64,000 nt of DNA from Boletus sp. NGJ (lineage: Eukaryota > Basidiomycota > Agaricomycetes > Boletales > Boletaceae), in the NCBI GenBank assembly GCA_019096195.1, contig JAGTXK010000012.1, forward strand, positions 124,001-188,000. Reading direction: 5' to 3'. The position numbers and the translations under genes were made by a program. The notes beneath the pieces were generated by a model that saw only the letters and a program-made list of their open reading frames with translations, was not told the origin of the DNA and searched no databases. Below are positions 1-57,168 of the stretch, one piece after another; the first letter of the stretch is position 1; every line of letters begins with the position of its first letter.

Positions 1-1197
1 CTTTTCCCGAAAATGCTGAAACCGTGAGTCGCCTGCACTTGCATGCCCGAGGCATAACCTGCAACGTAGTGACAGAATAGTTGCCCGATTCTTCACGAGC
101 GTTGATCAAAGCAACGAGCGTGGAAGGAAGCTTCTTGGACCATTAATCGAGGAGCGGCAAAAATACATCGATGAATATGGGAAGGAGTGGGCCGACAAGC
201 CTGTTGGTCAACCTCGTTCGCAGACGATATCCACACTCACTACCGGTTTCTTGATAGAACGACTTTCTATCATGGTTGATGGAAGAGGGAGAGGGTCCAG
301 ACTTGACTGTAAAGTCCTTGACAACCCGTATAATGGTTATCAATTTTGCGGCTATCCACGTAGGTCCCGATGTTGTTTCCTCTCGTATACTAATGACGCT
401 AAGATCTTTTTATTTCGCGGTTAGACGTCTTCCAATGTACGCTTTGAATTCATGATCCAGACCTAACTCGTTTGACTGACACCACATGACGTCGACAGAG
501 CTTCACTCATGCACTCTTCTACCTCGCAGCGAATCCCCAGTACATTCAGCCTCTTCGTGAGGAGGTTGATGCAATCGTGGGGAAGAACGGGTGGTCGAAA
601 GCTGCACTAGGCAAGATGCGAAAACTAGATAGCTTCCTCAAGGAGTGCCAACGTCTCAAAGGTATTGGCAGCAGTACGTGTCTCTCCATTCATCCGATCC
701 ATCAGATTATTCAACCCACTAGCGGGGCTGATGCGCAAGGCGTTGAAAGACTACACATTCCCGGACGGCACATTTGTACCAAAAGGCACCACGATCCTCG
801 CAGCCATGCGATCCATACACCATGATGAAAGGTTCTACCAAAACGCCCACGCATTCGAGCCCTTCCGATTTGCAGGCGTGCATGAAGAGGACGGCGAAGG
901 CGTCAAGTATCAATACTCGTCGACGACGACCGAGTATTTGCCCTTTGGACATGGTCGACATGCGTGGTATGGTCCTTCTCCTCCGTGTTCTCAACGACCA
1001 GTAAGGTTCACCGAGTGTATGCTAGCCCGGGACGTTTCTTTGCTGCAAACGAGCTGAAATCGATGTTGGCCCACGTCGTGGTGACGTATGATGTGAAGCT
1101 GGCAGAGAACGCGACGCCTCCGCGAACGCTGCGTTTCGCGACGGCGCTGATGCCTGATCCGAGTGCAAAGGTGATGTTCCGAAGGAGGGTTGACTGA
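1..1197 (+). CDS. Cytochrome P450 copy A, 3' part (cut by window edge)
   Basis: C-terminal half of a basidiomycete cytochrome P450, a heme monooxygenase normally tied to the ER and fed by cytochrome P450 reductase. Visible exons by alignment with the other copies: 1-23, 76-202, 258-359, 425-436 (a 12-base micro-exon coding TSSN), 499-673, 723-966, 1026-1197. Seen: I-helix stretch NFAAIH+TSSN+SFTHALFYLA, K-helix ExxR as ECQR, PERF-like PFRF, and heme loop FGHGRHAC-PGRFFA with the cysteine codon split by the last intron (967-1025). All visible exons stay in frame to the stop at 1195-1197, so this copy may be intact. The substrate cannot be told. It resembles fungal P450s often labelled ent-kaurene oxidase-like; that label is not proof of function. 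Confidence 0.9.
425..436 (+). other. 12-base micro-exon of P450-A
   Basis: Four codons (T S S N) between a TTAG acceptor and a GTACGC donor. Without it the I-helix would lack the TS(S) residues that follow the conserved AAIH. The same exon is found at 17009-17020, 29653-29664, 36101-36112 (-) and 55810-55821 (-). Confidence 0.8.
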
Positions 1198-2081
1198 ACG
1201 ATTCTCTCGTCCGTGTATTACATGCCCCAATTATAACTGAGCTAGATGAATGTTAACCTCGGTTTTCATTCCGGAACCCGTTCTTTGTCTTGCCTCGCGC
1301 GTTCGACTCTATGCCTCCTGTGCTGGCATTCATGTATGTATTCGATAAATCGTCTGGCGAGCTGAATGCAGTTGGCTTTTGATTCTGATTTTATGGCACA
1401 ATTGTCTGAGTGGTACAAGCCGACCCACAGTGCCTAGGTTTCCCTCGCATGGGACCTTCATGTTAGATTGTTACTGTTCAGTTCACCGTTACCGTCTCGG
1501 CACTCTGGGGGGCAGGTGAATATTTACAAGCAAGCAATTGTAACATTACCCCACTGTCCCACTGAGATGGTAGACAACGCGGTGAAAAGACAACCGGAAA
1601 GCCGTCGGCTTGTCGGCTTGTATGGGCTTAAGCAAGGACTGCCATCTCCTGTCTGTGCATCCGTCATGCGGTGTGGAGACTGAGCACCTTTTGAACCAGC
1701 GCTGGCAAACAAATAATGTCGTACGCTTCTCCCGAGACGTGTGTAGTACCGCTTTGGCTCTCATATGACATGATAATGGCGCACCATCAGGTTTTAATTC
1801 GCGTATAAGAAATCCAGTCGTTGGCATTCTCGCCTTCTTTGACATTCAGACACTGTCCTCTAATCCCAACCTAGTAAGCACATGTACTGCATTGAGTCAT
1901 CTCGATCAACGTGTCTCATCGTGTGTACCCGAGCGAACGCACAACATCCATGCGGGTAACCTGACAGAAATGGTAGCGTCGCCTGATCCTTGCTGATGCT
2001 GATCCACTATGAGTCTAAGAATGCAAACTAAAGGGCATCGCGCGCACCGTTATATGGACCCTCGTAGGCGAAGATTGAGGA
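1198..2081. other. Intergenic DNA with WD40 3'-flank repeat
   Basis: No supported gene. The part from about 1860 to 2080 repeats beside the 3' ends of the other WD40 copies (near 7120-7260, 11200-11340, 33860-34020 inverted and 51890-52010 inverted), so the duplicated unit extends past the coding region. Short frames around 1470-1850 show no recognisable protein; a piece near 1600-1650 resembles 58840-58890 in inverted orientation. Confidence 0.5.
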
Positions 2082-4143: not shown

Positions 4144-6279
4144 CCTTACCAGTGGTATTGTACACACTGATTGTCGGCTTTGAAGAGTGGGAGAACAAGC
4201 GTCTCAGTTTCAAACTCGTGGCACACAAACTTGCTGCATACGCACGCTTATTCTCCATATATATGGTCGCGCACTGCCTTGTGTCTTTGGCGCTTATTCT
4301 TACTCGAATCCCAACTACGTGACCTCGCTGCGAGCCTGCGACACGTAGCTTTGCCCTGGAATTTGTGAGCGTTCGTCATACTCAACTCCAGGACTCAGTT
4401 CACAACGTGAGCTTCGGCTGGCGATGGATCGGTGTCGGCAGAAGCGTGTTTTCGGGCTCCGTCGTCGAAGGGGCGCAAACACATGTTTGCGCATCTTGTT
4501 CAGCTTCTTCGACGACAGATCACTCTTTCGCACCTACTCTGTATCCTTTTTGCCCCACCCACCTGCACCCTCTGGTGTCTTTCCATCTCTCTTGCCCTGT
4601 CTGTACCATAGTCTGCACTGGTCAATTGAGCTGCTTTTCTTTCTTTCTTTGTGCACCCAGTCCTGCCTTCCAGCTGCATTGGGTCGGAGTTCTCGCCGCT
4701 CTGGCTCACAGCACACCTGTCAGTCAGGACAGATCTCTGGGCCCAAACCACCCAGGTCCCATCCTGGACTGCACCCAGCCCACCTAAGGAAGGCCTGTCT
4801 AGATCTGGACTATCCCACACTCTCTTCATTGCATCACACTAGTATTCCACTCACTAGCCTACTGCCCCCTCACCCTCGATGCACCCAGCCTGAAATGGGT
4901 GGATTAGACCAACTCATGACATGTGCCACACAAAATCATTCTCATAAACTTTAAAAGCCACAGTCAAATGTATGTTTGTGCAGCCACCTGGATCCAAAAC
5001 CACATTTGTTGGGCCATGTCTCTCCCTGGAACTTGAGTGGTTGTTCTCAAACACAGCCTCGTTAGCGTTCGTACTAGTATTCCCCTCGTATACTCACCAA
5101 CAAGTTGCCTTGTTCACCATGGCCAGATTGTCTCACAGACAGAGACATGAAAGCCACAGAATCACTGCAGATTGCTCTCAAATGCTGTCCTGAGGTATAA
5201 AAAGTGGATTCTACAAGCATAATATGCTCTGTGATCTTTGCACAACATTGTCTAATGTGTTCTACCACCATCTAGGGCAGGATTGAAATGCCGTATTTTT
5301 GATATTCCGATGACTCGGATCAGGCCAGATCCACAGCCCATTCACGAACTGTCGCAGCACTTTGATCGACGTCGAAGGCATCGCTCCAGTGCGCGAACGC
5401 TTACGCACGTTGTTGCTAGTACGTACCCCTCATGAAATTGACTGGACCATCGACACTGACAAGGTTGGTCCGATATGAATATTCCCTGCGGTCACTGATG
5501 TATGTCCTCTTGTTTACGCAAATCATTCTACAGTACGTCTTGCAAGCAGCAGAGAGAGCCTACATGGTTGGCAACTTCGCTTTCTCAACTAAACCTAGCG
5601 AGCAAGTTGGAAACACAAAGACAGTGAATCAAGACTCGAACTTCTGAACCCTGATCGATGATGTGCGTTTTTATGTATGCAGGTAGCACGGTCCGAGATG
5701 CGAAGATGATTTTGTGGACCTCATCCATGATCATGCTCTACAGAGAGGGGGCGAGTGTTTCGGTGACCATCTCCAGGGCAGCCAACCGTGATACTATCGT
5801 ACTATCATACTTGCAAAGTGAGTCGTATGCCACCTACTTTGCCTCGTTGCCCTGGAGTACGAACGGTCTCTTCTACATTCTCCAGCTACTCGTTAGTTGT
5901 CATATGACCTAACGTATGCGCCACCTCCGTACATACGAAGTATGTCATCACGGCCGTCCTCCTTGCAAGCCATCCCTCTGCTATCTACAATAAATCACTC
6001 CGACCCATTCATTCACCTCCTAGTCGATCATCCAGTCGTATTCTTCCTGATTCCCCCTGTTGTCCATCTTCCTCTGACGACTGTAGCAAATCTGGCTAGT
6101 GGCCCACTATGCTAGTGCCTGCCTTGGGGCATGGGAACTCTGTCAAAACCTTGATACAAAGTGCAAGGAACAAGACATTGAGCAGGAACAACCGTCTTCT
6201 ATTCCCGCAGTGGTGCACTCTTTCTTGACTCCTCCAGCAGAATACCGCCTGTCAACAATGCATCATCGCAGATCTAGGT
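4144..6279. repeat. WD40 5' flank and first copy of module M
   Basis: 4144-4540 repeats the 5' flank of the other WD40 copies (compare 9366-9640, 13453-13740, 31560-31740 inverted). About 4540-5050 is a pyrimidine-rich stretch absent from the other units, perhaps an insertion; no ends could be fixed. 5050-5920 is module M, shared with 9840-10500, 13900-14530 and 31080-31290 (inverted). On the + strand it includes exon-like pieces: one near 5310-5420 ending at a GTACGT donor (motif PIHELSQHFD) and one near 5475-5560 (motif YSLRSLMYVLLF). No unbroken gene model was found. 5920-6240 shows nothing recognisable. Confidence 0.5.
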
Positions 6280-6732: not shown

Positions 6733-7261
6733 CTCGAGTAGTGGACGTACGCCATTTACGCCTGCGATGGTGGTGACATCTGTGTGCGGTCAAAGGACGA
6801 TGTCAGTGATGTGGGCCGTATGATAAAAGGTCGGGGGCATGCGAAGAACTTGAGGGTGACGTTTTGGGTCCCACAGCCCATACGTGGCCAGGAGCGGGCA
6901 AACATGGATCTCACAGATAAGCAGAGAATGTCTGAAGGAAGACGCAGCGCGGCCAAGGCTGCGATCAAGGTTGTTCTCGTTGTTCTAAATAGGTGAATAT
7001 TGTGGATCCTAACCTCCGCGAGCTTATAGTAATAGGACTTGTACTGATACCGCGAGGGGACACGATCTCTCGAAGGATTGCACGGTTAATATCCATATGT
7101 TCGTGATTCAGTGTAGTATCTATGTCCCATCATGTGTACCTGAGCGAGAACATAACAACCACCCGGGGAACGTGATTGCAAGAGTAGCATAGTCTGATTC
7201 CTGTGGACGCTGAAGCGCTGTAAGTCGAACAATGTAGGTCAACGGAAAATAATGCGCACCG
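6733..7261. repeat. WD40 3'-flank repeat
   Basis: No clear gene. About 6780-7080 matches 34020-34290 in inverted orientation (shared string ACGTATGGGCTG and neighbours); frames on both strands are open for about 70 codons, but which strand, if any, codes is not clear. 7120-7261 is the 3' flank common to WD40 copies. Confidence 0.45.
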
Positions 7262-9365
7262 TTAGATGAACCCCCGTGGCCGAGGGTTGAGATGGATTGC
7301 TTGCTTGCTGCGCCTAATATGGGCATGAGTTGTCGTAATGAGGTCCATTATTACTAGAAAGAGACGCACTGGTGCTGCTTTCCTTGTATCCGTAGCACGT
7401 TCTCCGCTACGAGAAGCGACTTCGTTCGGCTGGTTAGGAATAGTAGCCTTGCTATATGATTTCTCCTGTGACGTGTGATGATTCAAGTTCTGTGCATACC
7501 GATCCAGGAGACAACGAACCTGTGGCCGTCTGACGTTTTTTGCGACCGCTCGCTAAGATATGTCAGATACTGCACCGATCATCTATCGAGGAAACACACT
7601 CACTCGCTTACGTTTACCTGCAGCCATCCAAGCAGGTCTTTCGTGCCTGTCATCCACTCTCACTGGGGTGTGGGAAGGAGAACGATGATCGGCAGGTTCG
7701 CGCGACTTTCCGGAAAGTCGATCAGGCTTGTGTGATGCCGGGTCCTTGTTACTCTTCCTTAACCGCGTCTGTAGCCACCTTTTGACCACGTTGCCCTTCG
7801 ATGACTCGAGATTTTGATTTTCCTCCTGACGTGTCTCTGGGGGGGAGTTTACTGGCAGGTCATCCAATGACTGTAACATGAGATGAGATGATCCAACTGG
7901 CACTATCTCATCCTCGCGGGGATCGACAGAGGATGCTGGTGACAGTGACTGCAGCAGTGTCAACATGGAAGTAAGGGGAGAATAAAGTAATCACCAACCT
8001 CATCATAGTCGAAGGATAGAGGAGCTGGCGTGTTGGATGGCACCTCGACCTATGTCATCGTTAGAACTCGCTTCGAGGGTGAAATGAACAAACTAGTACC
8101 TCGAGGAGATCGTCATTGTCTTTATTGTGTCCCGCAGACTCGAGCGGTCCAGATTTGTCAGTATCTTCCTGTTGTACGTAGGGAATGGAGTCAGCGTAGC
8201 TCATTTGGTGACGGAATGACAATATTTTACTGGGGAGGGGTTAGGTGCATTAGCATCGGGGCCGCCGGATGTGGAAGGCCGCCGGTCTTGCTGTACTTCG
8301 TCACGAGTGGATACCTATGCAATCTGTCAATATGCGAGGGAGAATGGGACTTCTGCGACTATGAATGAGCAGATACTTGCATGGAATGGACTATATGAAT
8401 TAGGAAGAATCCTGCTGAGATCATGAATGACGATTTTCCCGTCATATCGTCCAATCGCAAGGTAGCTATTGTCCGGGGAGATGGTGATCGACCGCAGTCT
8501 TTCGCTGTCCTTGATGACTCGGACCAGGTCGATGCGAGTAAGTGTTGATGTGTCGAGGAACGAGATGGAATCCAATGCAAAGGTAGTGATGAATTTGCTG
8601 TTTGGTGCTAGAGCGATAGAGGGGATGTTGTCATTGCTGTTATGGAGAATCTGTGATTCAGCAAGTTGAGACCCAGTGAAGACATCGAAAGCCCTGATTT
8701 TGTTGTCGCAGGACGCAGCAAAAATTTGCTGAGCATCGCCTGACCATGCAAGCGGAGTGCACAACCAGGTGGGTATGTCCGTATTGATGGCGATGCGCTT
8801 GTCACCAGTATGACTGTCGAAAATGCGGATCGCGTTTCTCCCCCAGCAAGCAGTGGCAATGAGCTCGCCAGTCGGGGAGAATCGAAGTCCAGTGACGCGG
8901 TCGTCATGACCGAGCGGGCCAACGAGTCTTTTCCCACTCGTAATGTTCCAAATGCTCGCGTCTCCGGTGTTAGTCCCAGTGGCAAGCCTGGTCGAATCTG
9001 GGGAGACGTCCACTGCCCACACGTCGTTGTCGTGCTCCACGTCGATGACCTTTTGACGCATCTCTCCGTCCCACACGTTCGCTCCCTTATCAGCCCCACA
9101 CACTATCCACTTCTGATCCCGCGACACAGACATGGCGTTTACGTCCATTCCCGTTTGCTTTCTGACCTCTTTGCCGTTTGCAATTCGCCGTCGTTGTATC
9201 CCGCCATCGCCCCCGCCAAAAACATGCTTTCCGTCAGGGTGGAATGCGACCGCCCGCACCACTTTAGAGCTACCGGTGTCCAGGATTATTTTATGGTCTT
9301 ACTGAACGTCAGCATTGCTCAATCACTCCTCAGAACTATCACGTACCTGTATTCATCGACGACAT
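7262..9365 (-). CDS. WD40-propeller protein U2, intact copy (573 aa)
   Basis: Predicted scaffold protein with one seven-blade beta-propeller. Exons on the minus strand: 9365-9347, 9297-8381, 8314-8231, 8168-8100, 8049-7999, 7948-7604, 7552-7520, 7465-7262; together 1722 bases, 573 residues plus stop, no internal stop. Residues about 10-310 hold the WD40 repeats, starting VVRAVAFHPDGKHVFGGGD; about 310-390 are acidic and polar; about 390-500 form a basic Ser/Pro linker (MVKRWLQTRLRKSNKD); the last exon has a hydrophobic run VRLFLVIMDLITT and a basic end HLNPRPRGFI. The start ATG is chosen because MSS-N-T is conserved in all copies and its exon splices in phase. Odd point: intron 2 has a GC donor (CAT|GCAAGT) where U1, U3 and U4 have GT. 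Without GC-AG splicing the protein would end soon after the propeller. Not an NLR: no P-loop or NACHT region is in front. Confidence 0.8.
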
Positions 9366-11435
9366 TCTCACCAATGGTGCACAATCGTCGGTTTCGCAGT
9401 GTCAAACAACAAGGTGTTTCGGTTGACTCGTGGTGCGCAAAGTTCAATACTGAAACCCGTTCCCTGATTCTCAATATGGTCTGTTTACGCACTGCCTCGC
9501 ATCTTCAACGCTTATACTTGGATTTCAGCTACGCGGACTCGCTGCGACAACCAGGTAAGCAATCATCATCCCCGAAGCTTTCCCTCGCTGCCGCATGTAA
9601 CCTACCTTGTCATTTGCGGGTGCTCATCATTTCGCGACTGCAGACCTCGATCAGTGCATCCGCATTCCACATACTGCGCACAAAATCCGACTCGTTCTCA
9701 TACATGACGTGGTCAAACTGCTGATAAATGTTTCCCATAAAACAGGAGACGATTGTACTTCTGTGCATCTACTTCAACCACGTCACATTCACGTGTATGC
9801 GCAGCCTGGGCGTTCTCCTATTTGTCTTTCTGGAGCTTCGATAGTTGCGCTCAGACATCACCTCATTGGCACTAACAATGCCTTCGTACACTCAACGGTA
9901 TGCGCGCGAGTGTGATCGATTGCAGGAGATTATTTAATGTGTACTACTGCCACTATCTGGCAAGATCAACGTCCCTGTGCGTGAACTATCAAAATACTTT
10001 GACCCATATCCAAGACTCGCTTCGGCGGGCGGACATTTACGCACCATCATGTAAGTTAGTACGCTTCCCTTCTCATGACGTTGACTGGACTACCGACATT
10101 GACGAGCTGACCAGACGTGAATATTCCTCGTGACCACGGATGGATGTCTGCTTGTTCGCACTACAGATTTCATTCTACGTCCTGCATGTGTCAGGAATGG
10201 CACGGCCAGCGATCTCGCGATCTATCAGCAGATTAGCCACACAAGCTTCGGGGATCAAGACTTGAGCTTCTGAACCGGACCGATCATGTATGGTCAGAGG
10301 TACAAGGATAATTTTGTGGATGTCATCAACGCTGCGACGTTTCTGTGCTAAAGAGCTCAACTCGTTTCACAGACTCTGTTTCCCTCTTCTTTGTCACTTA
10401 CTTTGCTTTGTATTTGCCGCTGCCCTGGGGTACAAGCGGTCCCTTTTACATCTTCCAAGTGCTCATCGGTTGTCACATTGGGTTCGCTAATATAGAAAAG
10501 TCTGAACCTCTTTCAATACCAAGTACTGAGTCGCCGATCGTTGTCCTCCCGAGGTACGAGTCTCTCTAGGATAATGTCCGTTCCGACACCTGTACACCAG
10601 TGGCTACATGCAACCCACCATCGGGCCCGCCATCCGATCCGTGCCAAACCTCGTCCTCGCGAGACGATGCATCCTCACACCAAGCCTCCGAATGCGAGCG
10701 CAAACGAAAACGGGATGGTGCAGAAGTGAAGGAACGTCTGGAAGGCATTGTTGAACCGAAAGGAGTGGGGGGAGACGCACGCGGAGAGAGAGCGATGGTG
10801 CGTTTCGGGAAAAAGTGGGACGAATCGACGTTATTGGCGGTTGGAGAGATCCGTATGTATTCTGATTCTCGCCAAGCTTTCGTTATTGACGTCTTATTAA
10901 TGCTATCATCATACACAGTCCTTCGTTCCTTGTGTGTACATGCGTCTGCGGTGTCGGGTCTGCGGATCCTTTGTGCCAGCCTTGGCAAATACTTAGATGT
11001 GTGTAGTGCAGCCCTGGCCCCGATACAGCGTGACGATGGCCGCGTGTCTCCCATATGCCTGAATGTTGCCTGAATGTCGACATGCCTGCCAAAGGTTGGG
11101 TTACGCGACCTCCTACCACACACGCCGGTTTTAGTCGATATTCTTTGTAATAATCAATCAATCCCAACCGAGGGTCTACATGTATGATGTACATACATAA
11201 AACACCTGGATCAATCTGTCTCATCGTGTGCACCTGAGCGAATACACAACATCCACGCGGGTAACCTGACTGCAACGGTAGCGTCGCTTGATCCTCGCTG
11301 ATGCTGATCCACTATAAGTCTAACAATACAAGCTAAAAGGACATCACGCGCACCGTTACATGGACCCTCGTACCCGAAGGTTGAGGTGGACTATTCTCTT
11401 GTTGCACCTGTGGGCGTGAACGGTCGTTATGAGTT
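9366..11435. repeat. WD40 5' flank, module M copy 2 and second unknown piece
   Basis: 9366-9640 is the WD40 5' flank. 9840-10500 is module M: near 9896-9935 + strand codons give RYARECDRLQEII, and 9962-10050 give KINVPVRELSKYFDPYPRLA then a perfect GTAAGT donor, so this was once an exon. 10370-10500 also recurs inverted at 59570-59760. 10560-10900 is a further repeated piece, found inverted at 52430-52740 and partly at 30650-30800; its + frame (157 codons from 10600) is rich in charged residues and contains MVRFGKKW, matched by VRFGKGG in the 52.5 kb copy. Stops and gaps differ between copies, so I cannot give a gene. 11100-11435 is WD40 3' flank. Confidence 0.5.
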
Positions 11436-13452
11436 CTACATCACCGGAAAAAAAAAACGCACTGGGTCTGCTTCCTTCGCGCCGACAGATTCATTCCCGC
11501 CGCGCGACTCGGAGGCATTCTTGTTCGGATGCTTCGTCTTGGAAGATGATTTGTCCTGCAACGCGTGATGAGTCCCTGCATACAAACCCGGGGCACAACG
11601 AACCTTTGAGTTTCCCCACGATGGCGCGACCGTTCGCTAGAATGATATGTTAGACACACCACGTCCGATAGTCTATCAGCGAAGAGCACTCACTGCCCTG
11701 CGTTGACCTGCAGCCATCCTCGAAGGTCCCTGTCTTGTGGCATCCACTCTCGGTGGTGAGTGGGAAGGAGATCGACGAGCCGTAGCCTCATGCGATTTTC
11801 CGGAAAGTCGATTAGGCTTGTGCGATGCTGGGTCCTTGTTACTCTTCCTCAATCTCGTCTGTACCCACCTTTTGACCATGTTACCCTTGGATGAGTGGAG
11901 ATTTTCCTCTTGACGTGTCTCTGGGGGGGAGATTACTGGCAGGTCATCCGATGACTGTGATGTGACATGAGATGATTCAACCGGCAGTATCTCATCCTCA
12001 CGGCGATCGGCAGAGGATGCTTGTGATAGTGACTGTAGCTTTGTCAACATAGAAGCAAGAGGAGGACAAAAATCACAGACCTCGTCATAGTCAAACGATC
12101 GAGGAGCTGGCGCGCTGGACGACGCCTCGACCTATGTCATCATTCAAACTTGCTTCAAGGGTAAAATGAACAAACTGGTACCTCGAGGAGATCGTCATTG
12201 TCTCTGTTGTGTCCCTCGAACTCGAGTGGACTGTTTTTCCCATGATCTTCCTGTTGTACATACACAATGGAGTCAGCACAGCTCTTTCAGTACCGGAATG
12301 ACAGTGTTCTACCGGGGAGGAGTTAGGTGCTGTGGCGTCAGGGCCGCACAGCGTCGAAGGCTGCTGGTTTTGTTGTACTTCCTCGCGAGTGGATACCTAT
12401 ATAATTTGTCAACATACGAGACAGAATGGGGCTTATCTGACATGCTGTAACTATGAATGAACAGACCCTTACATGGAATGGACCATACGAATCAGGGAGA
12501 ATCTTGCTGAGATCACGAATGACGATTTTCCTGTCAAATCGTCCAGTCGCAAGGTAGCCATTGTCTGGGGAGATGGTGATTGACCGTATCTCTTTGCTGT
12601 CCTTGATTACCAGGTCAATGCAAGTAAGTGTTAATGGGTCGAGAAGCAAGATGGAGCGTAATGCGAAGGTAGCGACGAATTTGCCGTTGGGGGCTAGAGC
12701 GATAGAAGGGACTTCGTTGTTGCTGTTATGGAGAGTCTGTGATTCAGCAAGTTGGGACCCAGTGGAGGTATCGAAAGCCTTGATTTTGTTGTCGTAGGAC
12801 GCAGCGAAAATTTGCTGAGCATCGCTTGACCATGCAAGCGGAGTGCACAACCGGGTGGGTATGTCGGTATTGATGGTGATGAACTTGTCACCGGTATGAC
12901 TGTCGAAGATGCGGATTGAATTTCCCCACCGGCAGGCAATGGCGATGTGCTCGCCAGTCGAGGAGAATCGGAGTCCAGCGATTTCGTTGTCAAGTTTGAG
13001 CGGGCCAATGAGTCGTTCCCCACTTTCGATGCTCCAAATGCTCGCTTCCTTGGCACGAGTCCCGGTTGCAAACCAAGTCGAATCTGGGGACACGTCGATT
13101 GCCCACACCTCATTTTCGCGCTCCACGTTGATGACCTTTTCATCCATCTCTTCGTCCCATACACTTGCCCCCTTCGTAGTCCCACACATGATCCACTTGC
13201 CATCCCTCGACGCACAAATGGCACGTAAGCTCATTTCCGTTTTCTCTCCGACCTGTTGACCGTCCGCGAGTCGCCATCATCGAATCCCACCCATGCCCCC
13301 GCCCAAAAAATGTTTTCCGTCAGGGTGGAATGCGACTGCATATACTCAGTCAGTGCGACCAGTGTCAAGGACTATCGTTTGGTCTTACTGAATTGTCAGC
13401 ATTGCTCGACGAATCTTCATAATTATCACGCACCGGTATTCGTTAACGACAT
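11436..13452 (-). pseudogene. WD40-propeller protein U3, broken copy
   Basis: Third WD40 copy. The start (MSLTNT, 13452) and exon 1 donor are kept, but exon 2 has two in-frame stops near its 5' end: TGA before VYAVAFHPD (about 13350) and TGA inside the first blade (GGIR-stop-WRL, about 13285). Blades 2-7 remain open from MSLRAICASRDGK at 13234 to about 12470, so a shortened product is conceivable. Linker is of the U2 type (SPPETRQEEN, MVKRWVQTRLRKSNKD). In the last exon the T-run coding Phe has 10 bases against 7 in U1, and a stop follows at 11436-11438, giving a shorter tail than U2 or U4. Intron 2 donor is GTAAGG. Host gene family; probably a pseudogene. Confidence 0.7.
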
Positions 13453-15100
13453 CTCTACCAGTGGTACACAAGCGCCGGTTTCGTAGAGTCAAAGAACAAG
13501 GTGTTTCGGTTTGCTCTACGTCCGCAAGTTGCTGTATAAACACGTTTCCTTTTTCTTGATGACTGGTTCATGCACTGCCTTGTGTCTCCGGCGCTTATTC
13601 TTTTTACTCGCATCCCAGCTAGTACGTGACCTCATCGCGACGACCAGGCAAGCAGTCAACATCAGAGAAACCTCCCCTCGCTGCGACGCGTAACCTTTCC
13701 TGGGATTTCCGAGTGCTCGTCATATCTCGGCTGCAGTCGATTAATGAGTGTACAATCCGCATTATACCAACTCGCGACATACCGCGGACGAAGGTTTTCC
13801 ATCCAATAGGAGACGAATGTCCTTCTGTGCACCCACTTCTACCGCGTCACATTCACATGTATGCGCAGCCTAGGCGTTTTCGCCTCCCTGGTGCTCGTAT
13901 CCTTGCGTTCAGACACCGCCTCATTGGCTCTGGCAATGTCCTCATACACTCAACGACAACTTCTCTGGCTCACCATGGCCGGACTGTCTACATGAATATC
14001 ACAGAATAGCCAGAGATGCTCTCAGGAGGTTAGACAAAGGTGTGGGATGCGGATCCTACGTACGCGGTATGCGCGTCAGTATGATCGATTGCACAACATC
14101 ATTTAATGTGTTCTGCTGCATCCCAGGAAGGAACGATGCACTGTACTTCGATATTTCGACAAACAGGCAAGATCGACGTCCCTGTTCATGAACTATCCCG
14201 GTACTTTGACCCATGTCCAAGGCTCGCCTGAGCGGGCGGACATTTACGCACCATGTAGCTGGTACTGTGCGCTTCCCTCGTGAAAAATACACCTTGCGAT
14301 CACTTATGCATGTCCTCTTGTTCGCACTACAAAATTCATTCTATGTCCTGCAGAAACGGTACACACGGTCAGCAATCTCGCGATCTCGATCAAGTTTAGC
14401 GAGTAGATTAGCTATTCAAGGACAGGAGATCTCGATCAAGACTTGAGCTTTGGAACCGGACCGATATCGATGGGTGTGTTAATGTATGCATGCAGCACGG
14501 TCAGAGATACGAGGATGATGAGTCTAACTGGAATAGCATTACATAGGCTCCCACGAACGAACCGAACTACCAGGAATCCAGGACCCCCCGCCAGCGATTT
14601 TCTGGTTCCTGTGCAGTACTGCGCTGGAGCTGGCCAGCGCGGATTCCTCTCCTAGGCGGGATTCGGCGACAATTGAGGCTCTATCGTCAAATACAAATGG
14701 TCCGGAGACGGCCGGGGGGAACACAGCAGTCACAGGATGCGCCCTTCATGAACTCTTACCCTCGTGCTCTTGCCAGCGTAAAATTAGTGTGACCAATTTA
14801 TTTACTGTCACTGACGCTGGTCATCGACAGATGACTCGCTGTGCATCTGATGACTGAACATTTTGGTGACAGGAGTGGGGGAATTACTTCTGCTATTGGG
14901 GTTGCTGACCACCTTTCCATGTAACACCTATGGTATACCGCAGGGCGTGCTGCTGCCCCTCACTGTGCATGCCCACAATTTCGCAGGTTTCTTCTTTCGT
15001 CATGAAACCTCTTGAGCCGTATGGATCATCGCAAGCTTGCTTGGCTGGGTTTCGTGTAAAGCAGTGCGAGTGGTGTCCGTGACACTGCCGAACGAGATTT
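13453..15100. repeat. WD40 5' flank, module M copy 3, then unassigned DNA
   Basis: 13453-13740 is WD40 5' flank; 13900-14530 is module M. Here + strand codons near 14075-14110 read RYARQYDRLHNII, 14160-14250 read KIDVPVHELSRYFDP before a GTAGCT donor, and 14290-14440 read LRSLMHVLLFALQ and ASRLAIQGQE. 14540-15100 shows no repeat partner and no recognisable gene. Confidence 0.45.
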
Positions 15101-15677: not shown

Positions 15678-17776
15678 ATGATTTCACCACTGCTCGAGCC
15701 ACCTGCGGGCATCTTTGGTTGTATTGTTCTCGCCACTGCCCTTATCGTCGTCGTGAAGTGGTCCCAGTCTTCTAAGGTGAGTATGTCGGAAAACACTATG
15801 TTGCTCTCTTCGACGCTTATTTCCCAAGCTCGATCGTATACCCACAGTGGGGTCGAGTGGCTGGCTGGGCTCGTGGTGGGCCGTTTTAAAGTATCTGATC
15901 AACGCGACGGACATATTACAAGAAGGATATGAAAAGGTAAGTATAATGCTTCGCACATTTCATACCTGCTCACTCAGTGTTTCAGCACAAGTCTGCCCCA
16001 TTTAAGGTTACAGAACCATACCGCTGGGTAGTCGTTCTCAGCAACCGCGAACATGTGGAAGAATTACGGAGAGCTCCCGATGGCGCTCTCTCTTTCAAGG
16101 AAGCCGTTCATGATGCGAGTAACCATTCACTTAGTGAGATTAACTTGAACTAAATGTCGCTCACAGCAATTTAGCATGGAGTACACAACAGGAGCCAAAG
16201 TTCACTCTAACTCCTACCATACCCCGATTGTGAGAGCACAACTAACTCGGAATATCGAAGCATTGTATCCGGAAATCAAAGATGAGATGAGTACAGCTTT
16301 TGATGACGTATTGGATCTCAGGGGAAATGGTGAGTGTCCCGCTCCCATTCGTGTGCGCTATTCATGAATGTCTGGAACACCCAGAATGGAAGAGTGTGCC
16401 AGCGCTCAGCAGCGTGCAAAAAGTAGTTTGCAGAACGAGCAACAGAGTGTTCGTCGGACTTTCGTTATGTCAGCCTTTCAGCGATCTCCCTTTTTCTTTG
16501 TCCTTTACCCCAATTGTTCTAGGTCGTGACCCTGACTGGATGGATCTCAACATTCGATATGCCTTCGATATCATTAAAGGAGGGGCTATCATCGGGCTGT
16601 TCCCGAAATTGCTGAAACCGTGAGTCACATGCACTCGCCTTTCCGAGGGTAGCCTTGAAGGTAGTGATAGAATAGCTGCCCGGCTTTTTACGAGCGTTAG
16701 TCAGAGCATCCAGCGTGGAAGGAAGCTTCTCGAACCAATAATCGAGGAACGACGAAAATATATCAATGAATATGGGAAGGAGTGGGTCGATAAGCCTGTT
16801 TGTCAGCCTCGTTCACAGACGATATTGGCACTCACTATCGGTTTCTTAGAACGACTTTATATCGTGGCTAATGGAAGAGCATCCAGAGTTGATGATAAAG
16901 CCCCTGACAAGGACTATATTGGCTCTAAATGTTGCGGCTATTCATGTGGGTCCCGATGGCGTTTCCTTATACACTTTCGATGCTGAGATCTTTCGACTTC
17001 GCGGTCAGACGACTGCCAACGTACGCTTCGAACTCATGATGCAAACCTAACTTGCCTGATTGACACCAAATGACAGACCTTTACTCAGGCACTCTTCTAC
17101 CTCGTAGCCAATCCTCAATACATTCAGCCACTTCGTGAGGAGGTTGAAGGAATCGTTGAGAAGGAGGGATGGTCAAAGGTTTCACTAGCCAAGATGCGAA
17201 AGGTAGATAGCTTCCTCAAGGAGTGCCAACGATTCGAAGGCATTTCCAGCAGTACGTGTCTCTCCATTCATCCGATTCGTCACATCACTCAACCCACTAG
17301 CGGGGCTGATGCGCAAGGCGTTGAAAGACTACACATTCTCGGACGGCACATTTGTACCAAAAGGCACCACGCTCGTCGCAGCCATGTGGTCTATACAGCA
17401 TGATGAAGCATTGTACGAAAATGCCCACGCATTCAAGCCTTTCCGATTTGCAGACTTGCATGGAGAGGACGGCGAAGGTGTCAAGTATCAGTTTACGTCG
17501 ACGTCAACGGACTATTTAGTGTTTGGACACGGTCGGCATGCATGGTATGGTCTTTCTTCCTCCCTGTTTCCAACGACCATGAAAAACCGCTGATTGTATG
17601 TTAGCCCGGGACGTTTCTTTGCTGCAACCGAGCTGAAATCAATGTTGGCCCACATCGTGGTGACGTATGATGTGAAACTGGCGGATAACGCGACGCCTCC
17701 GCGAACGCTGCATTTTGCGACGGCACTGATGCCCGATCCGCGTGCAAAGCTCATGTTCAGAAGGAGAGTTGACTGA
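15678..17776 (+). CDS. Cytochrome P450 copy B, intact (501 aa)
   Basis: Complete P450 of normal length. Exons: 15678-15776, 15829-15936, 15986-16114, 16167-16329, 16385-16468, 16523-16619, 16671-16797, 16850-16945, 17009-17020, 17077-17251, 17301-17544, 17605-17776; 1506 bases, 501 codons plus stop, phases consistent throughout. Residues about 8-27 are a hydrophobic N-terminal anchor (IFGCIVLATALIVVVK) followed by a Pro/Gly hinge (TVGSSGWLG). I-helix NVAAIH+TTAN+TFTQALF, ExxR as ECQR, PFRF, heme loop FGHGRHAC-PGRFFA. Intron 2 has a GT donor and 49 bases; intron 3 has a GC donor (GAT|GCGAGT). The start ATG is the only one that keeps the anchor and matches copy D. Substrate unknown. Confidence 0.88.
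17009..17020 (+). other. 12-base micro-exon of P450-B
   Basis: Codes T T A N; bounded by GTCAG acceptor and GTACGC donor; needed to give the I-helix its normal length between AAIH and TFTQ. Confidence 0.78.
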
Positions 17777-24830: not shown

Positions 24831-25682
24831 ATGGTGTCTCCACTGCTCGACCCGCCGGCAGGCATCTTTGGTTGTGTTATCGTCGCCGCTGCCTAAGTTG
24901 TCATCGTCGTGAAAAGGTCCCAGCCTTCTAGAATTAAGGTAAGTATAGGTTTCCGAAAAGACTAAGTTGCTCTCCTCGACGCTCATTTCCCCAGCTTGAT
25001 CATATATCCACAGTGAGGTCGAGTGGCTGGCTTAGTTCGTGGTGGGCTGCAGAGCTCCACCGCTGGACAGTCATTCTCAGTAGCTGCGAGCATCTGGAAG
25101 AGCTAGTACGGAGAACACCCGATGACAGTATCTCTTTTATGGCAGCCAAACAAGACGTGATAATGATTTTATTCCAATGAGATTGACTTGTACTGAATTT
25201 CACCAACAGGTAATTCAGGGTGAGTATACAATGGAACCCGAGATAAACCATAAACCATTCCATTCCTCAATTGTGGCAACAAAACTAACTTGGAATATAG
25301 AAGCCTTGAATCCAGAAATCAGAGATGAGATCAGTACAGCGGTTTTTGACGACATATTGGATCTTAGGGGAAATGGTGAACATCCCGTCGCCCTCATTCG
25401 TGTGCGCTATTCATGAATATCTGGAACACCCAGAATGGAAGAGTGTGCCACCGGCCGGCAGCGTGAAAAAGGTGGTCAGCAGAACGATCAACAGAGTATT
25501 CGTCGGACTTCCATTGTATGAGCCTTCTCCATACGTTCTCCCTTTTTCTCTGGTTCTTACTTCAAATTTTCTACTAGTAGGCCGTCACCCTGACTGGATA
25601 GATCTCAGCATCAAATATACCCTCCTCGATGTCGTTAAAGGGGGGCAGGGCTATCATCGGGCTTTTCCCGAAATTGCTTAAA
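24831..25682 (+). pseudogene. Cytochrome P450 copy C, broken 5' half
   Basis: Matches exons 1-6 of copies B and D. Exon 1 (from ATG 24831) keeps SPLLDPPAGIFGCVIVAAA but then has a TAA stop inside the membrane anchor. The end of exon 2, intron 2 and the start of exon 3 are deleted, fusing SSWWA directly to AELHRWTVILSS near 25047. Exons 4-6 follow (tail about 25210-25682, ending GLFPKLLKP-like sequence with a GTGAGT donor) and then homology stops. Exons 7-12, including I-helix, ExxR and heme loop, are missing; instead a condensin gene fragment on the opposite strand follows. Cannot make a P450. Confidence 0.85.
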
Positions 25683-28301: not shown

Positions 28302-30429
28302 ATGATTTCACCACTGCTCGAGCCACCTGCGGGCATCTTTGGTTGTCTTGTTGTTGCTACTGCCCTTATCTTCGTCGTGAAGTGGTCCCAGTCTTCTAAG
28401 GTGAGTATGGTATCTGAAAACACTATGTTACTCTCTTCGACGCTCGTTTCCCCAGCTTGATCGTATCCCAACAGTGGGGTTGAGTAGTTGGCTTGGCTCA
28501 TGGTTGGCTGGCTTTAAATATCAGACGAATGCACCGGACATTCTACAAGAAGGATATGAGAAGGCAAGTATAATGGTTCGCACATTTTATTCGCGCTCAC
28601 TCACAGCGTTTCAGCACAACTCTGCGCCATTCAAGATGGCAGAACTCCACCGCTGGACAGTCATTCTCAGCAGCCGTGAGCATGTGGAAGAACTACGGAG
28701 AACACCCGAGGACACACTCTCTTTTACGGAAGCTAAAAAAGAGGTGATAACTATTTTGGTCCAACGAGATTAACTTCAAGTTGTACTGAATGTCATCTAC
28801 AGGCGATGCAGGGCGAGCACACTCTGGGACCCGAAATTTACTATAATCCCTATCATATTCCGATTATGATCTCACAATTGACTCGGAATATCGGAGCCTT
28901 GTATCCAGAAATCAGAGACGAGATTACCATGGCTTTTGATGACGTACTGGATCTTACAGGCAACGGTGAGCACCCCGCTCTCATTTATGAGCGTTATTTA
29001 TGAAAACTCTGGAACAACCAGAATGGAAGAGTGTGCTGGCGCTCAGAAGCATGCAAAAAGTAGTTTGCAGAACGAGCAACAGAATTTTTGTCGGACTTCC
29101 ATTGTGTGAGCGTTCCCATGGTCTCCCTTTTCTTTCGTTCCTTACCTCAAATTTTCTAGGCCGTGACCCTGACTGGATAGATCTCAACATTCAGTATACC
29201 CTCGATGTTGTCAAAGGAGCCGCTATCATCCGGCGGTTTCCGCAGTTACTGAAGCCGTAGGTCGCTTGCAGTCGCCTGTACAAGCATAGCGTTGAACGTA
29301 GTGACAGAATAGCTGCTCGCCTTTTTACGAGCGTTTATCAAAACCAGCGACGCGGAAGGGAGCTTCTCGGTCCAATAATCGAGGAGCGACAGAAATACCT
29401 TAATGAGTATGGGAATGAATGGGCCGACAAGCCAGTTGGTCAATCTCTTCGCAGATGATAGCTGCACTCACTATCGGTTTCTTGATAGAATGACTTTCTG
29501 TCATGGTTGATGGAAGAGGCAGAGGGTTCAGAGTTGACAATAGAGCGCTTGACAACTCGTATATTGCTCATCAATTTTGCGGCTATCCATGTAGGTCTCA
29601 ATATTGTCTCCCGCATACTTGTGATGCTAAGATTTTTCAAATTTGCGGTTAGACGTCTTCTCAGGTACGCTTCGAATTCACGTTGCAGCTCAAACTTGCC
29701 TGATGGACGCCACATGACAGAGCTTCACTCATGTGCTGTTCTACCTCGCAGCGAATCGCCAGTATATTCAACCTCTTCGTGAGGAGGTTGAAAGAATCAT
29801 TAAGAAGGAGGGATGGTCGAAAGCTGCACTGGGCAAGATGCGCAAAGTAGACAGCTTCATCAAGGAGTGCCAACGACTCGAAGGCATTTCTAGTGGTACT
29901 TGTCTCTGCATTCATTCGACGCGTCAGCCACTCTGATAATTTAACCCATTAGTGAGTCTGATACGTAAGGCGATGAAGGATTTCACGTTCTCGGACGGTA
30001 CGTTTGTACCAAAAGGCACCTCGATCGTTGCAGCCGCTCGATCTATTCACTATGATGAAGCGTTCTACGAAAACGCCCACGCATTCGAGCCCTTCCGATT
30101 TGCCGACCTGCGAGAACAGGATGGTGAGGATGTAAAGCATCAATTCGTCTCGACGACGACCGAGTATTTGTCCTTTGGACATGGTCGACGCGCGTGGTAC
30201 GCTCTTTTGATCTCGCAATTTCAGACGACTACGAGAAGTCACTGATTAAATTGTTAGCCCGGGACGTTTCTTTGCTGCAAACGAACTGAAATCCATGTTG
30301 GTCCACGTCGTGATGACGTATGATGTCAAGTTGGCGGACGATGCGATGCATCCGCCAACGCTGTATTTTGGAATGGCGACCCTACCTGAACCAAGTGCAA
30401 AGGTCATGTTCAAAAGGAGGGTTGATTGA
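28302..30429 (+). CDS. Cytochrome P450 copy D, intact (503 aa)
   Basis: Complete P450. Exons: 28302-28400, 28456-28563, 28615-28743, 28803-28965, 29022-29105, 29160-29256, 29308-29434, 29489-29590, 29653-29664, 29721-29895, 29953-30196, 30258-30429; 1512 bases, 503 residues plus stop. N-terminal anchor (FGCLVVATALIFVVK), I-helix NFAAIH+TSSQ+SFTHVLFY, ECQR (ExxR), PFRF, heme loop FGHGRRAC-PGRFFA. Exon 8 is six bases longer than in copy B. Intron 2 (28564-28614) has a GC donor (AAG|GCAAGT) and is 51 bases with no stop, so keeping it would add 17 residues in frame. Upstream region is shared with B. Likely ER-bound monooxygenase; substrate unknown. Confidence 0.88.
28564..28614 (+). other. GC-AG intron 2 of P450-D, open in frame
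   Basis: Starts GCAAGT, ends TTTCAG, 51 bases, 17 sense codons. Counterparts: 37145-37195 (-) in E and 56856-56906 (-) in F, both GC and 51 bases and open; 15937-15985 in B, GT and 49 bases. Confidence 0.75.
29653..29664 (+). other. 12-base micro-exon of P450-D
   Basis: Codes T S S Q, bounded by GTTAG and GTACGC. Confidence 0.8.
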
Positions 30430-34925: not shown

Positions 34926-35337
34926 AGTCGTCGTCCCCGGCCCTCACAAGGGGGTCCGTCTGTGTGTTCTAAGTCACCCCGCGCCTTTCTTGTCTTACGA
35001 CACAGTTGATGCCATATCATTCCGCTCATTCTGTTGGTCCTCTGTCTTCACGTTCACGCGAAGATTGGGGGCTCATACACACATCCACTCTACAGACTTG
35101 CACGTCGTCGGAATACCTGATCGAGGAGGAAGCACTCGCGTCGATCGCTGCGTGTTCACGTTCTCGAGTATACAAAGAACACAGAATACAAATACAATAT
35201 TGACAATCGAACCATACACTTTCGAGTGAGGCATGTAGGTTCAGGGAATCCCGGTAACCTTGCTTCCCGTCCACAATTTGCAATAAAAATAAAAAGAGAA
35301 AGAGTCGGCGCATATAATGCACGTACAGGGGAATCGT
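34926..35337. repeat. 3' flank of P450-E, duplicated beside P450-F
   Basis: Counterpart of about 54760-55044 (shared GGAATACCTGA, GAGTATACAAAG, GAACCATACACTTTC words). Nothing coding recognised. Confidence 0.5.
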
Positions 35338-37456
35338 TCAGTCAACCCTCCTCCTAAACATGACCCTTGCACTCGGATCAGGTAGCCTCATCACCGCGAG
35401 ATGCAGCGTTGGTGGACGTGTTTCGCTATCCGCCAACTTGACATCATACATGATGAGGACGTGGACCAACATGGATTTCAGTATGCTTGCAACAAAGAAA
35501 CGTCCCGGGCTGACAAACAGTTAATGCTGTCTTGTCGTCGTTGGAAACAGTGAGAAAGGAAGAGCATACCACGCGTGTCGACCATGTCCAAAGGGCAAAT
35601 AATCGGTTGTCGTCGATGTAAATTGATACTTCATGCCCTCGCCGTCCTCTTCAAGCAAGTCGGCAAATCGGAAGGGTTCGAATGCGTGGGCGTTTCCGTA
35701 GTATTCTTCATCATAGTGTATAGATTGAATAGGTGCGAGCATTGTGGTACTTTTTGGCACAAACGTGCCATCCGAGAATGTAAAGTCTTTCAGCGCCTTG
35801 CGCGGCAGTCCCACTAGTGGAATAGCCTAAGAGGAGCTGACGGGGATTGAGAGAATGGAGAGACAAGTACCGCTAAAGGTGCCTTCGAGACGTTGGCACT
35901 CCTTGATGAAGCTGTCTACTTTTCGCATCTTGCCCAGTGCGATATTCGACCAACCTTCCTTCTCCATGGCTGCTTCAACCTCCTGACGAAGAGGTTGAAT
36001 ATATTGAGGATTTGCTGCGAGGTAGAAAAGAGCGTGAGTGAAGCTCTGTCATGTGGCGTCAATCAGACGTTAGAGCTTCAACAAGACATTTGAAGCGTAC
36101 GTGGGAAGTCATCTAACCGCAAAATCAAGGGATCTTAACGACGTCGCTATGCGAGTAGACAACATCGGAACCTACTTGGACAGTGGCAAAATTGCTGGCC
36201 AATATACGAGTTGCCAAGGACTTTACTGTTAACTCTGAACCTTTTGCCTCTTCCATCAACCATAACAGAAGGTCGTTCTATCAAAAATTGAGAGTGAGTG
36301 ATGATCCTCATCTGCAAAAGAGGTTGACCAACTGGCTTGTCGGCCCACCCATTCCCATATTCGTTTAGATATTTTTGTCGCTCCTCAATTATCGGACCAA
36401 GAAGCTTCCTGCTACGCTGGTTGTTTTGATTAATGTTCGTAAAGAATCGGGCAGCCATTCTATCACTACGTTGAAAGCTAGACCTCGGACGGGCAGTTAC
36501 AAGGAACTTACGGTTTCAGTAAGTCCGGGAACAATCCGATAATAACCGCTCCTTTGATGATATCGAGGCCATACTGGAGATTTAGATCTATCCAGTGAGG
36601 GTCACGGCCTAGAGGAGCTGAAGTAAGAAACAGAAATGGTGGGCGATAGCAAAACTTTCATAATGGGAGTCCGACAAACACTCTGCTGCTCGTTCTGCAG
36701 ACTAACTGTTGGACGCTGCTGAGTGCTGACACACTCTTCCATTCTAGGTATTCCGGACATACATCAATAGCGCACACGCATGAAAGCAGGATTCTCACCA
36801 TTGCACCTGAGATCCAGCACGTCATCAAAGGCCGCGGTGATCTCATTTCTCATTTCCAGGAGCAATGTTCCAATATTCCGAGTCAGTCGTAAGCGCACAA
36901 TCGGAACATGATAGGGATTGTGGAGAATTTCGGGTCCCATTGTATACTTGCTCTGAATGAGCTGTAGGTGATATTCAGTACAGGTTAGCCTCACCGGAAG
37001 AAAATAGTTACCCACATCATTTACGGCTTCCACGAAGGAGAGCGTATCATCGGGTGCTCTCTGTAGTTCATCTATATGCTCGCGGCTAGTGAGTACGACT
37101 GTCCAGCGGTAGAATTCTGCAACTTTGAATGGTGCAGGTTTGTGCTGAAATGGTGCAACTGAGTATGTACGAAATGTACAAGGTACCAGACTTGCCTTCT
37201 TATACCCTTCTTGTAAAATGTCCGGCGCATTGATCAGATACTTTAAACTGGCCCACCACGAACCAACCCAGCTACTAGACCCAAATGTGGGAATAGCATC
37301 AAGCTGCGAAATGGGTCAGGGTTGAGGAGAGCAAGTATTTCGGACAACTGCACTCACCGTAGAAGGCTGAGACAACTTTACGACGACAATGAGGGCAGCA
37401 AGAGCAACAACATAACTTGAGGTGCTCGCCAGTAGGTTGAGTAGTGAGGAATCCAT
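35338..37456 (-). pseudogene. Cytochrome P450 copy E, full frame but one splice donor lost
   Basis: All 12 exons are present on the minus strand: 37456-37358, 37303-37196, 37144-37016, 36961-36799, 36743-36660, 36608-36512, 36459-36333, 36277-36176, 36112-36101, 36045-35871, 35813-35570, 35509-35338; 1512 bases, open throughout (503 residues). Anchor SSYVVALAALIVVVK, I-helix NFATVQ+MTSH+SFTHALFY, ECQR, PFRF, heme loop FGHGRHAC-PGRFFV. The donor of intron 5 reads GAAAGT instead of GTGAGC (as in F), and reading on meets a TGA at once. Intron 2 is GC-AG. So it is a very young pseudogene or uses a rescue splice site. The N-terminus differs from the B/D type (MDSSLLNLLAS), defining an E/F subgroup. 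Confidence 0.75.
36101..36112 (-). other. 12-base micro-exon of P450-E
   Basis: Codes M T S H; same GTTAG acceptor and GTACGC donor as in the other copies. Confidence 0.75.
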
Positions 37457-47941: not shown

Positions 47942-47946
47942 GCTTA

Positions 47947-55044: not shown

Positions 55045-57168
55045 TCAGCCAACCCTCCTCCTAAACATGAGCCTTGCATTCGGATCAGGTAGCATCGCCA
55101 CGGCGAAATGCAGCGTTGGTGGACGCGTCTCGTTGTCCACTAACTTGACATCATACATCGTGACGACGTGGGCCAACATGGATTTCAGTATGTTTGCAAC
55201 AAAGAAACGTCCCGGGCTGACAAACAGTTAATGCTGTCTTATCGTCATTGGAAACAGCGAGAAAGAAAGAGCATACCACGCGTGTCGACCGTGTCCAAAG
55301 GGCAAATAATTGGTTGTCGTCGATGTAAATTGATACTTCAGGCCCTCGCCGTCCTCTTCACGCAAGTCGGCAAACCGGAAAGGCTCGAATGCGTAGGCGT
55401 TTCCGTAGTATTCTTCATCATAGTGTATAGATTGAATAGGTGCGAGTATCGTGGTACCTTTTGGCACAAACGTGCCATCCGAGAATGTGAAGTCTTTCAG
55501 CGCCTTGCGCGGCAGCCCCACTAGTCGGTTGGATAATGTGAGCAAATGACGGGCATCTAAAGAATACAAAGGCAAGCACCGCTCAAACTGCCTTCGAGTC
55601 GTTGGCACTCCTTGACGAAGCTGTCTACTTTTCGCATCTTGCCCAGTGCAACCTTCGACCAACCTTCCGTCTCAATGACTGTTTCAACCTCCTCACGAAG
55701 AGGTTGAATATATTGAGGATTTGCTGCGAGGTAGAAGAGCACGTGGGTAAAGCTCTGTCATGTGGCATCAATTAGACGTTAGAGCTTCAACAAGACATTT
55801 GAAGCATACGTGGGAAGTCGTCTAACCACAAAATCAAGGGAATTCAACGTCATAAGTATACGAGCAGATATCATCGGAACCTACTTGGACAGTAAGAAAG
55901 TTGCTGGCCAATATACGAGTTGTCAAGGACTTTACTGTCAACTCTGGACCCTCTGCCGCCTCCATCAACCATGATAGAAGGTCGTTCTATCAAAAACTGT
56001 GAGTGAGTAGTGATACTCATCTGTGAACGAGGTTGACCAACAGGCTTGTCGGCCCACTCATTCCCATACTCATTTAGTGACTTCTGTCGTTCCTCGATGA
56101 TTAGTCTAAGAAGCTGCATTCCGCGCTTCTTTCTTTGGTTAATGTTCGTAAAGAACCAGCAAGCCACTCTGTCACCACGTTGAAAGCTAGACCTCGGACA
56201 AGCGGTTACAAGCGACTTACGGTTTCAGCAAGTCCGGGAAAAATCCGATAATAACCGCCCCTTTGATGACATCGTTGCCATACTGGATATTGAGATCTAT
56301 CCAGCCAGGGTCACGGCCTAGAGTGGTTGGAGTAAGAAACAAAGGAATGGGGGACGATGGCAAGGCTCACACAATGGGAGTCCGACAAACACTCTGTTGC
56401 TCGTTCTGCAGACTAACTGTTGGACGCTGCTGAGTGCTGACACACTCTTCCATTCTGAGTATTCCAGACATACATCAACAGCACACATGCATGAGAGCAA
56501 GATGCTCACCATTGCACCTGAGATCCAGCACGTCATCAAAGGCCGTGGTGATCTCATTTCTCATTTCCAGAGGCAAGGTTCCATTATTCCGAGTCAGTCG
56601 TAAGCGCATAATCGGAACATGATAGGGGTTGTGGAGAATTTCGGGTCCCATTGTATACTTGCTCTGAATGAGCTGTAGGTAACATTCAATACATGCTACT
56701 CTCACTAGAAGAAAATATTTACTCACATCATTTACGGCTTCCATGAAGGAGAGCGTGTCATCAGGTGCTCTCTGTAGTTCATCTATATGCTCGCGGCTAG
56801 TGAGTACGACTGTCCAGCGGTAGAATTCTGCAACCTTGAATGGTGCAGGTTTGTGCTGAAACACTGCGAGTGAGCATGTACGAAATGTACGAGGTACCAG
56901 CCCTGCCTTCTTATACCCTTCTTGTAAAATGTCCGGCGCATTGATCAGATACTTTAAACTGGCCCACCACGAACCAACCCAGCTACTAGACCCAACTGTG
57001 GGAATAGCATCAAGCTGGAAAAATGTGTCAGGGTTGAGGAGAGCAAGTATTTCGGACAACTGCACTCACCGTAGAAGGCTGAGACAACTTTACGACGACG
57101 ATGAGGGCAGCAAGAGCAACAACATAACTTGAGGTGCTCGCCAGTAGGTTGAGTAGTGAGGAATCCAT
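55045..57168 (-). CDS. Cytochrome P450 copy F, intact frame (503 aa)
   Basis: Complete P450 of the E/F subgroup. Exons on the minus strand: 57168-57070, 57014-56907, 56855-56727, 56672-56510, 56454-56371, 56317-56221, 56168-56042, 55986-55885, 55821-55810, 55754-55580, 55520-55277, 55216-55045; 1512 bases, no stop. Anchor SSYVVALAALIVVVK, I-helix NFLTVQ+TTSH+SFTHVLFY, ECQR, PFRF, heme loop FGHGRHAC-PGRFF. Intron 2 has a weak GC donor (GCAGGG) and is 51 bases and open, so a 17-residue longer form is possible. Exon 7 differs strongly from E and from all other copies (ACWFFTN for AARFFTN, MQLLRL for RKLLGP), while exons 1-4 are almost identical to E. Function of this copy may be relaxing. Confidence 0.8.
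55810..55821 (-). other. 12-base micro-exon of P450-F
   Basis: Codes T T S H; GTTAG acceptor, GTATGC donor. Confidence 0.75.

Follow-up and report, generated by a model that had tools for sequence, protein, structure and literature searches.

Tiny exons in the I-helix region of fungal P450 genes are already known. In the P450ome of Phanerochaete chrysosporium, micro-exons of 2-10 amino acids were found in nearly one-third, and that survey proposes a role for them in alternative splicing (Doddapaneni et al. 2005, PMC1184071). A recent account by Nelson and Syed (2026, PMC12940212) places an 8-nt exon inside the I-helix sequence AGHETT of CYP5141A1 from the same fungus, and describes multiple examples of micro-exons in the I-helix oxygen-binding motif.

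Here we analyze a 64,000-nt stretch of DNA from Boletus sp. NGJ (the window), which holds six copies, A to F, of one P450 gene. Five of them contain a 12-nt stretch that we interpret, with a probability of about 0.92, as a coding micro-exon that is included constitutively, the ninth of 12 exons, in a small and partly duplicated family of P450 paralogs. As judged from the DNA sequence, it is a real micro-exon of the type already described. We did not find this exact four-codon exon named in the literature searched, which did not extend to the web list of Nelson and Syed, and I-helix strings such as AAIHTT retrieved no relevant published text.

Results

The gene models use a hand-made model of copy B, micro-exon included, as the template, from which the other copies were derived by spliced protein-to-DNA alignment (Table 1). 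The preliminary description had counted five complete copies of 501-503 residues with every phase matching, and this count has to be revised. Just three copies, B, D and F, are complete, at 503, 505 and 503 residues, each open throughout and each needing one GC donor; copy A is a 3' part only, and copy E lacks a GT where the intron-5 donor should be, a position that the aligner bridged across an in-frame stop. Exon sizes are the same in the three complete copies except for exon 8 of B (96 instead of 102 nt) and exon 7 of F (127 instead of 133 nt). Copy F is without the usual intron-6 acceptor, and its model takes the next AG, 6 nt further on, with the loss of two residues in frame.

Table 1. 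Positions of the P450 copies, the 12-nt stretches and the introns flanking the copy B micro-exon in the window.
Feature	12-nt sequence and peptide	Position	Strand	Details
P450 copy A		4..1194	+	only the 3' part, from within exon 6 through exon 12 and followed by TGA; the 5' part lies beyond the window
P450 copy B		15678..17773	+	503 aa in 12 exons, followed by TGA; GC donor (GCGAGT) in intron 3
P450 copy C		24831..25679	+	frameshifted fragment without I-helix region
P450 copy D		28302..30426	+	505 aa in 12 exons, followed by TGA; GC donor (GCAAGT) in intron 2
P450 copy E		35341..37456	-	no GT at intron-5 donor place, frame meets stop
P450 copy F		55048..57168	-	503 aa in 12 exons, followed by TGA; GC donor (GCAGGG) in intron 2
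Putative micro-exon, copy A	ACGTCTTCCAAT = TSSN	425..436	+	AG/GT flanks, phase 0/0, Pfam
Putative micro-exon (exon 9), copy B	ACGACTGCCAAC = TTAN	17009..17020	+	AG/GT flanks, phase 0/0, Pfam
Putative micro-exon, copy D	ACGTCTTCTCAG = TSSQ	29653..29664	+	AG/GT flanks, phase 0/0, Pfam
Micro-exon-like stretch, copy E	ATGACTTCCCAC = MTSH	36101..36112	-	Met at I-helix Thr position
Putative micro-exon, copy F	ACGACTTCCCAC = TTSH	55810..55821	-	AG/GT flanks, phase 0/0, Pfam
Intron 8, copy B		16946..17008	+	63 nt, GTGGGT...TCAG, open in frame
Intron 9, copy B		17021..17076	+	56 nt, GTACGC...ACAG, CTAAC branch-like site

GC donors occur in four introns, on the plus strand at 16115-16120 (B intron 3) and 28564-28569 (D intron 2) and on the minus strand at 37195-37190 (E intron 2) and 56906-56901 (F intron 2). 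The intron-2 GC donor is common to D, E and F; B has GTAAGT there. Copies E (35208-37669) and F (54880-57381) lie within a 2.5-kb duplication, 88.7% identical and in the same orientation, and the intron-5 donor GT that is present in F is absent in its duplicate. Copy E is probably a pseudogene, to judge from the absent intron-5 GT donor, the stop and the Met that replaces the I-helix Thr, although the missing GT may instead be a sequencing error. When full-length D was used as a tblastn query, nothing of copy C matched past residue 224, before the I-helix; copy C is therefore uninformative on the micro-exon.

Elsewhere in the window, a segment of ~2.4 kb is present four times, its copies 72-83% alike (1898-4326, 7123-9547, 11203-13633 and, on the minus strand, 34000-31561), and encodes a protein that appears WD40-repeat-like by eye. 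Two retroelement-like copies, Copia-type by eye and 88.5% identical, lie between E and F (38451-40168 and 47940-49693). Together with the short introns and the duplicated P450 genes, these Copia-like copies would point to a basidiomycete, probably a fungus of the mushroom type.

The four copies scored, A (on its 3' part), B, D and F, all belong to the cytochrome P450 superfamily (Pfam PF00067), with scores of 167.3-178.5 bits against a gathering cut-off of 22.8 bits. By eye, the models of A, B, D, E and F all contain ECQR (K-helix EXXR) and ACPG (heme Cys-X-Gly), motif names that we take from Nelson and Syed (PMC12940212). The R of the heme motif FXXGXRXCXG is H in A, B, E and F (FGHGRHACPG) and R only in D.

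The 12-nt stretch is preceded by AG and followed by GT in all five copies (A, B, D, E and F), and in each it amounts to four codons with phase 0 at both ends. Its encoded peptide starts with T[ST] in four copies and with MT in E. We recovered all five 12-mers and their peptides, with their AG/GT flanks, just where the preliminary description had placed them. The exon junctions that it gave, AAIH or TVQ on one side and SFTH on the other, hold on the upstream side (AAIH in A, B and D; TVQ in E and F) and hold downstream except in B, which has TFTQ.

Intron lengths argue for an exon at this place. Intron 8 measures 62-65 nt and intron 9 measures 55-62 nt across the copies, and without the micro-exon they would fuse into single introns of 139 (A), 131 (B), 130 (D), 130 (E) and 130 nt (F). 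Compared with these 130-139 nt, the 40 other introns span 42-61 nt (mean 53.4, sd 4.5), in a set that leaves out copy C and whose minimum of 42 nt is the aligner-forced intron 5 of copy E. Among in-frame, open internal exons that leave both introns at least 40 nt long, the 12-mer is the sole candidate in four of the five copies, and copy B offers one extra candidate of 33 nt that is present in B alone. We also shuffled each merged intron 5000 times, preserving dinucleotides and leaving its ends in place. An in-frame open 12-nt exon of any kind arose in 1.4-7.3% of the shuffles and one coding for T[ST]xx in 0.02-0.3%, percentages that are not to be multiplied because the copies are paralogs with common descent rather than independent trials. 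The 12-mer with its flanks is more than chance. At the sequence level, it has the attributes by which fungal P450 micro-exons are recognized: an internal exon within the range of 2-10 codons, canonical splice sites, and the completion of a motif.

The Pfam profile agrees well with this structure. Scores against PF00067 with and without the micro-exon were 175.9 and 157.0 bits for A (3' part), 178.5 and 160.0 bits for B, 171 and 153.6 bits for D, and 167.3 and 148.7 bits for F, a gain of 17.4-18.9 bits in the four of five copies scored. Alternatively, there may be no micro-exon at all, with exon 8 either extended to a downstream GT donor (a VGPD-type extension) or joined directly to exon 10. 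In-frame open extensions are available in all five copies, a five-codon option is found in four (A, B, D and E), and in A (VGPD) and E (VGSD) an extension of exactly four codons would also restore the length of the helix. However, no single extension length is offered by all copies, F providing only one of 12 codons, and the extensions lose the I-helix Thr. Their scores of 159.1 (A, four codons), 155.2 (B, five), 154.4 (D, five) and 151.2 bits (F, 12) fall below the micro-exon model by 16.8, 23.3, 16.6 and 16.1 bits, respectively. Since the alternative in A is as long as the micro-exon model and nevertheless scores lower, the Pfam gain does not come from length alone. We rejected the alternative donor on its inconsistent lengths and lower Pfam scores, and consider a gene structure lacking the micro-exon exceedingly improbable.

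The I-helix oxygen-binding motif of P450s has the form [A/G]GX[D/E]T[T/S], and its Thr acts in oxygen activation. The corresponding letters are AAIHT[S/T] in A, B and D, LTVQTT in F and ATVQMT in E, so that LTVQ and ATVQ replace AAIH in the last two. Set against the motif form, the Thr falls within the micro-exon in four of the five copies, and other residues take the places of the Gly and the acidic residue. The AAIHT form of the I-helix resembles that of CYP512 or CYP503-clan fungal P450s, to which these genes may be related. With copy D as the query, the first micro-exon codon aligns to the I-helix Thr of solved P450s in all four PDB alignments listed, among 262 matches. The Thr of these structures stands in the contexts AGHETSS, AGQHTSS or AGHHTSS; three of the listed alignments are ungapped around it, and one has a 2-residue insertion in the target just past the four residues. 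It is thus supported that in four of five copies the conserved I-helix Thr is encoded by the predicted micro-exon of four codons, and that this exon gives the helix its normal length. The restored helix length claimed for this exon agrees with the Pfam scores, the alignment of the Thr to solved P450s and the logic of the intron lengths. The further claim that the exon supplies the oxygen-binding motif finds the same kinds of support for the Thr of four copies; copy E has Met there.

Nucleotide conservation of the 12-mer was rejected as evidence, as its mean pairwise identity of 0.74 is not above that of its surroundings (intron 8, 0.70; intron 9, 0.81; exon 8, 0.78; exon 10, 0.85). The five-copy alignment has no gap columns in the 12-mer or in exon 10, three in intron 8, nine in intron 9 and six in exon 8. 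The spliced aligner, given the template with and without the micro-exon, returned score differences of +3 (A), +10 (B), -3 (D), -4 (E) and +2 (F), and is indecisive between the models because it penalizes each extra intron; in copy E the full template passed over the micro-exon and took other sequence there. With the aligner indecisive and the 12-mer not extra conserved, four lines of evidence carry the case for the micro-exon: its fit to the Pfam profile, the dinucleotides at its splice sites, the lengths of the introns and the homology of the Thr. Searches for relatives with back-translated patterns, in collections that are not fungal, matched 6 stretches of viral contigs and 63 of bacterial and archaeal genome contigs, and confirmed none in either.

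The copies could also be decaying, to the point that the micro-exon has lost its importance in the majority. Copy C is a frameshifted fragment, and copy E combines Met for Thr with the lost intron-5 donor, unless these reflect sequencing error. Moreover, the I-helix of F is altered, with LTVQ in place of AAIH, and its intron-6 acceptor is shifted; a GC donor is required in each of B, D and F, and duplications and retroelement-like copies are present in the window. Yet B, D and F are open to their TGA, and dN/dS lies at 0.25-0.39, below 0.4, in all ten copy pairs (0.39 for E versus F), pairwise values that would still be compatible with a recent loss of constraint. These ratios leave out exons 4-7 for all copies, cover A on its 3' blocks only and omit C. 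On balance we find general decay unlikely.

The preliminary description went on to suggest that the micro-exon is an on/off switch: inclusion would give an active P450, and regulated skipping a protein four residues short in the I-helix, inactive or altered. It was right that skipping preserves the frame, as the exon has phase 0/0 and its length of 12 nt is divisible by three. Also in its favor, P450 genes are enriched among the alternatively spliced genes of Schizophyllum commune (PMC5034255), splice variants of CYP63A1 have been reported in P. chrysosporium (PMC1184071), and Trichoderma Xlr2 has a switch-like micro-exon of 20 nt (PMC11121469). On the other hand, among the coding-region events counted in assembled transcripts of S. 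commune, exon skipping makes up 1% (PMC5034255), and skipping here needs an intron of 130-139 nt, more than twice the local norm. A junction-based count from the same study records 1,527 skipping versus 7,851 alternative-site events in coding regions (PMC5034255). Since the two counts differ, the base rate of skipping is low by assembled transcripts and not negligible by junctions; neither count says that skipping is regulated.

Splice-site strength bears on the same question. In a first matrix the acceptor upstream of the micro-exon scored below all 43 other acceptors, in all five copies. That matrix was unfair, because it held paralogs of every other intron and none of intron 8. When each intron position was left out in turn, the signal disappeared: the intron-8 acceptor ranks fifth from the bottom among 11 positions (mean 1.8, range -0.8 to 6.2). 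It is second highest when only the last 5 bases are scored. Intron 5 of E was left out of both matrices, and the four introns of C entered only the first. We rejected a weak acceptor as a mark of regulated inclusion, and splice-site strength around the micro-exon is unremarkable when fairly compared. Skipping rates in the literature are mixed (PMC5034255). The proposed switch gains no support from the present analysis, and we regard it as very unlikely. It is just as hard to believe that regulated inclusion adds or removes the oxygen-activation Thr family-wide, toggling between catalytic and dead, possibly decoy, P450s.

Retention of intron 8 would have different consequences among the copies. 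In B (16946-17008) it would insert 21 residues with no stop; in E and F (63 nt each) it would introduce a stop, and in A and D it would shift the frame.

Discussion

We consider constitutive inclusion, by way of intron definition, the most probable mode of splicing of the micro-exon. We propose that introns 8 and 9, both of ordinary short length (62-65 and 55-62 nt), cut the I-helix codons only four codons apart, which would leave the segment between them as a tiny exon. Each short intron may be recognized across itself, by intron definition, so that the size of the micro-exon would be no obstacle; this accords with a review stating that short introns are recognized across themselves and that exon length hardly matters (PMC8624252). 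Because 12 nt would hardly accommodate two splicing complexes at once, the two removals may take place in sequence, perhaps intron 9 first and intron 8 second. CTRAY branch-like sites, present in intron 9 of all five copies and in intron 8 of one, weakly suggest that order. The mature protein would then read [AAIH]-[T(S/T)(S/A)x]-[SFTH], in which the first codon of the micro-exon encodes the oxygen-activation Thr.

The main consequence concerns annotation. If exon 9 escapes a gene caller, the resulting P450s would be too short by four residues and would lack the catalytic Thr, and these could be misread as dead enzymes. Published cases agree with the earlier warning that such exons can be missed by gene callers (PMC12940212, PMC11121469).

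Several features of this locus recur in the described systems. The P. chrysosporium P450ome (PMC1184071) shares the micro-exon size class, the short introns and the tandem duplicated P450 genes, and its speculation on alternative splicing resembles that of the preliminary description; unlike the present analysis, it is a genome-wide survey. Trichoderma Xlr2 (PMC11121469) likewise has a fungal micro-exon in a functional motif that automatic annotation missed, but that exon has 20 nt, which is not a multiple of three, lies in a transcription factor gene, and is included in transcripts in a glucose-dependent manner. In Fusarium CYP621A (PMC12940212), a micro-exon also completes a conserved P450 motif, and a double-length intron forms part of the argument, as it does here; in contrast, that exon is a single nucleotide in the PKG motif of an ascomycete gene, with SRA reads behind it. 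CYP5141A1 (PMC12940212) is, like the genes described here, a basidiomycete P450 with a tiny exon within the I-helix oxygen-binding motif. Its exon comprises 8 nt (gg/cac/gag) and lies just before the Thr, whereas the exon here would comprise 12 nt in phase 0/0 with the Thr first. The present locus may add a P450 family in which the codon for the catalytic Thr itself opens a 12-nt exon, and in which one paralog, E, has Met at that very codon together with another sign of decay.
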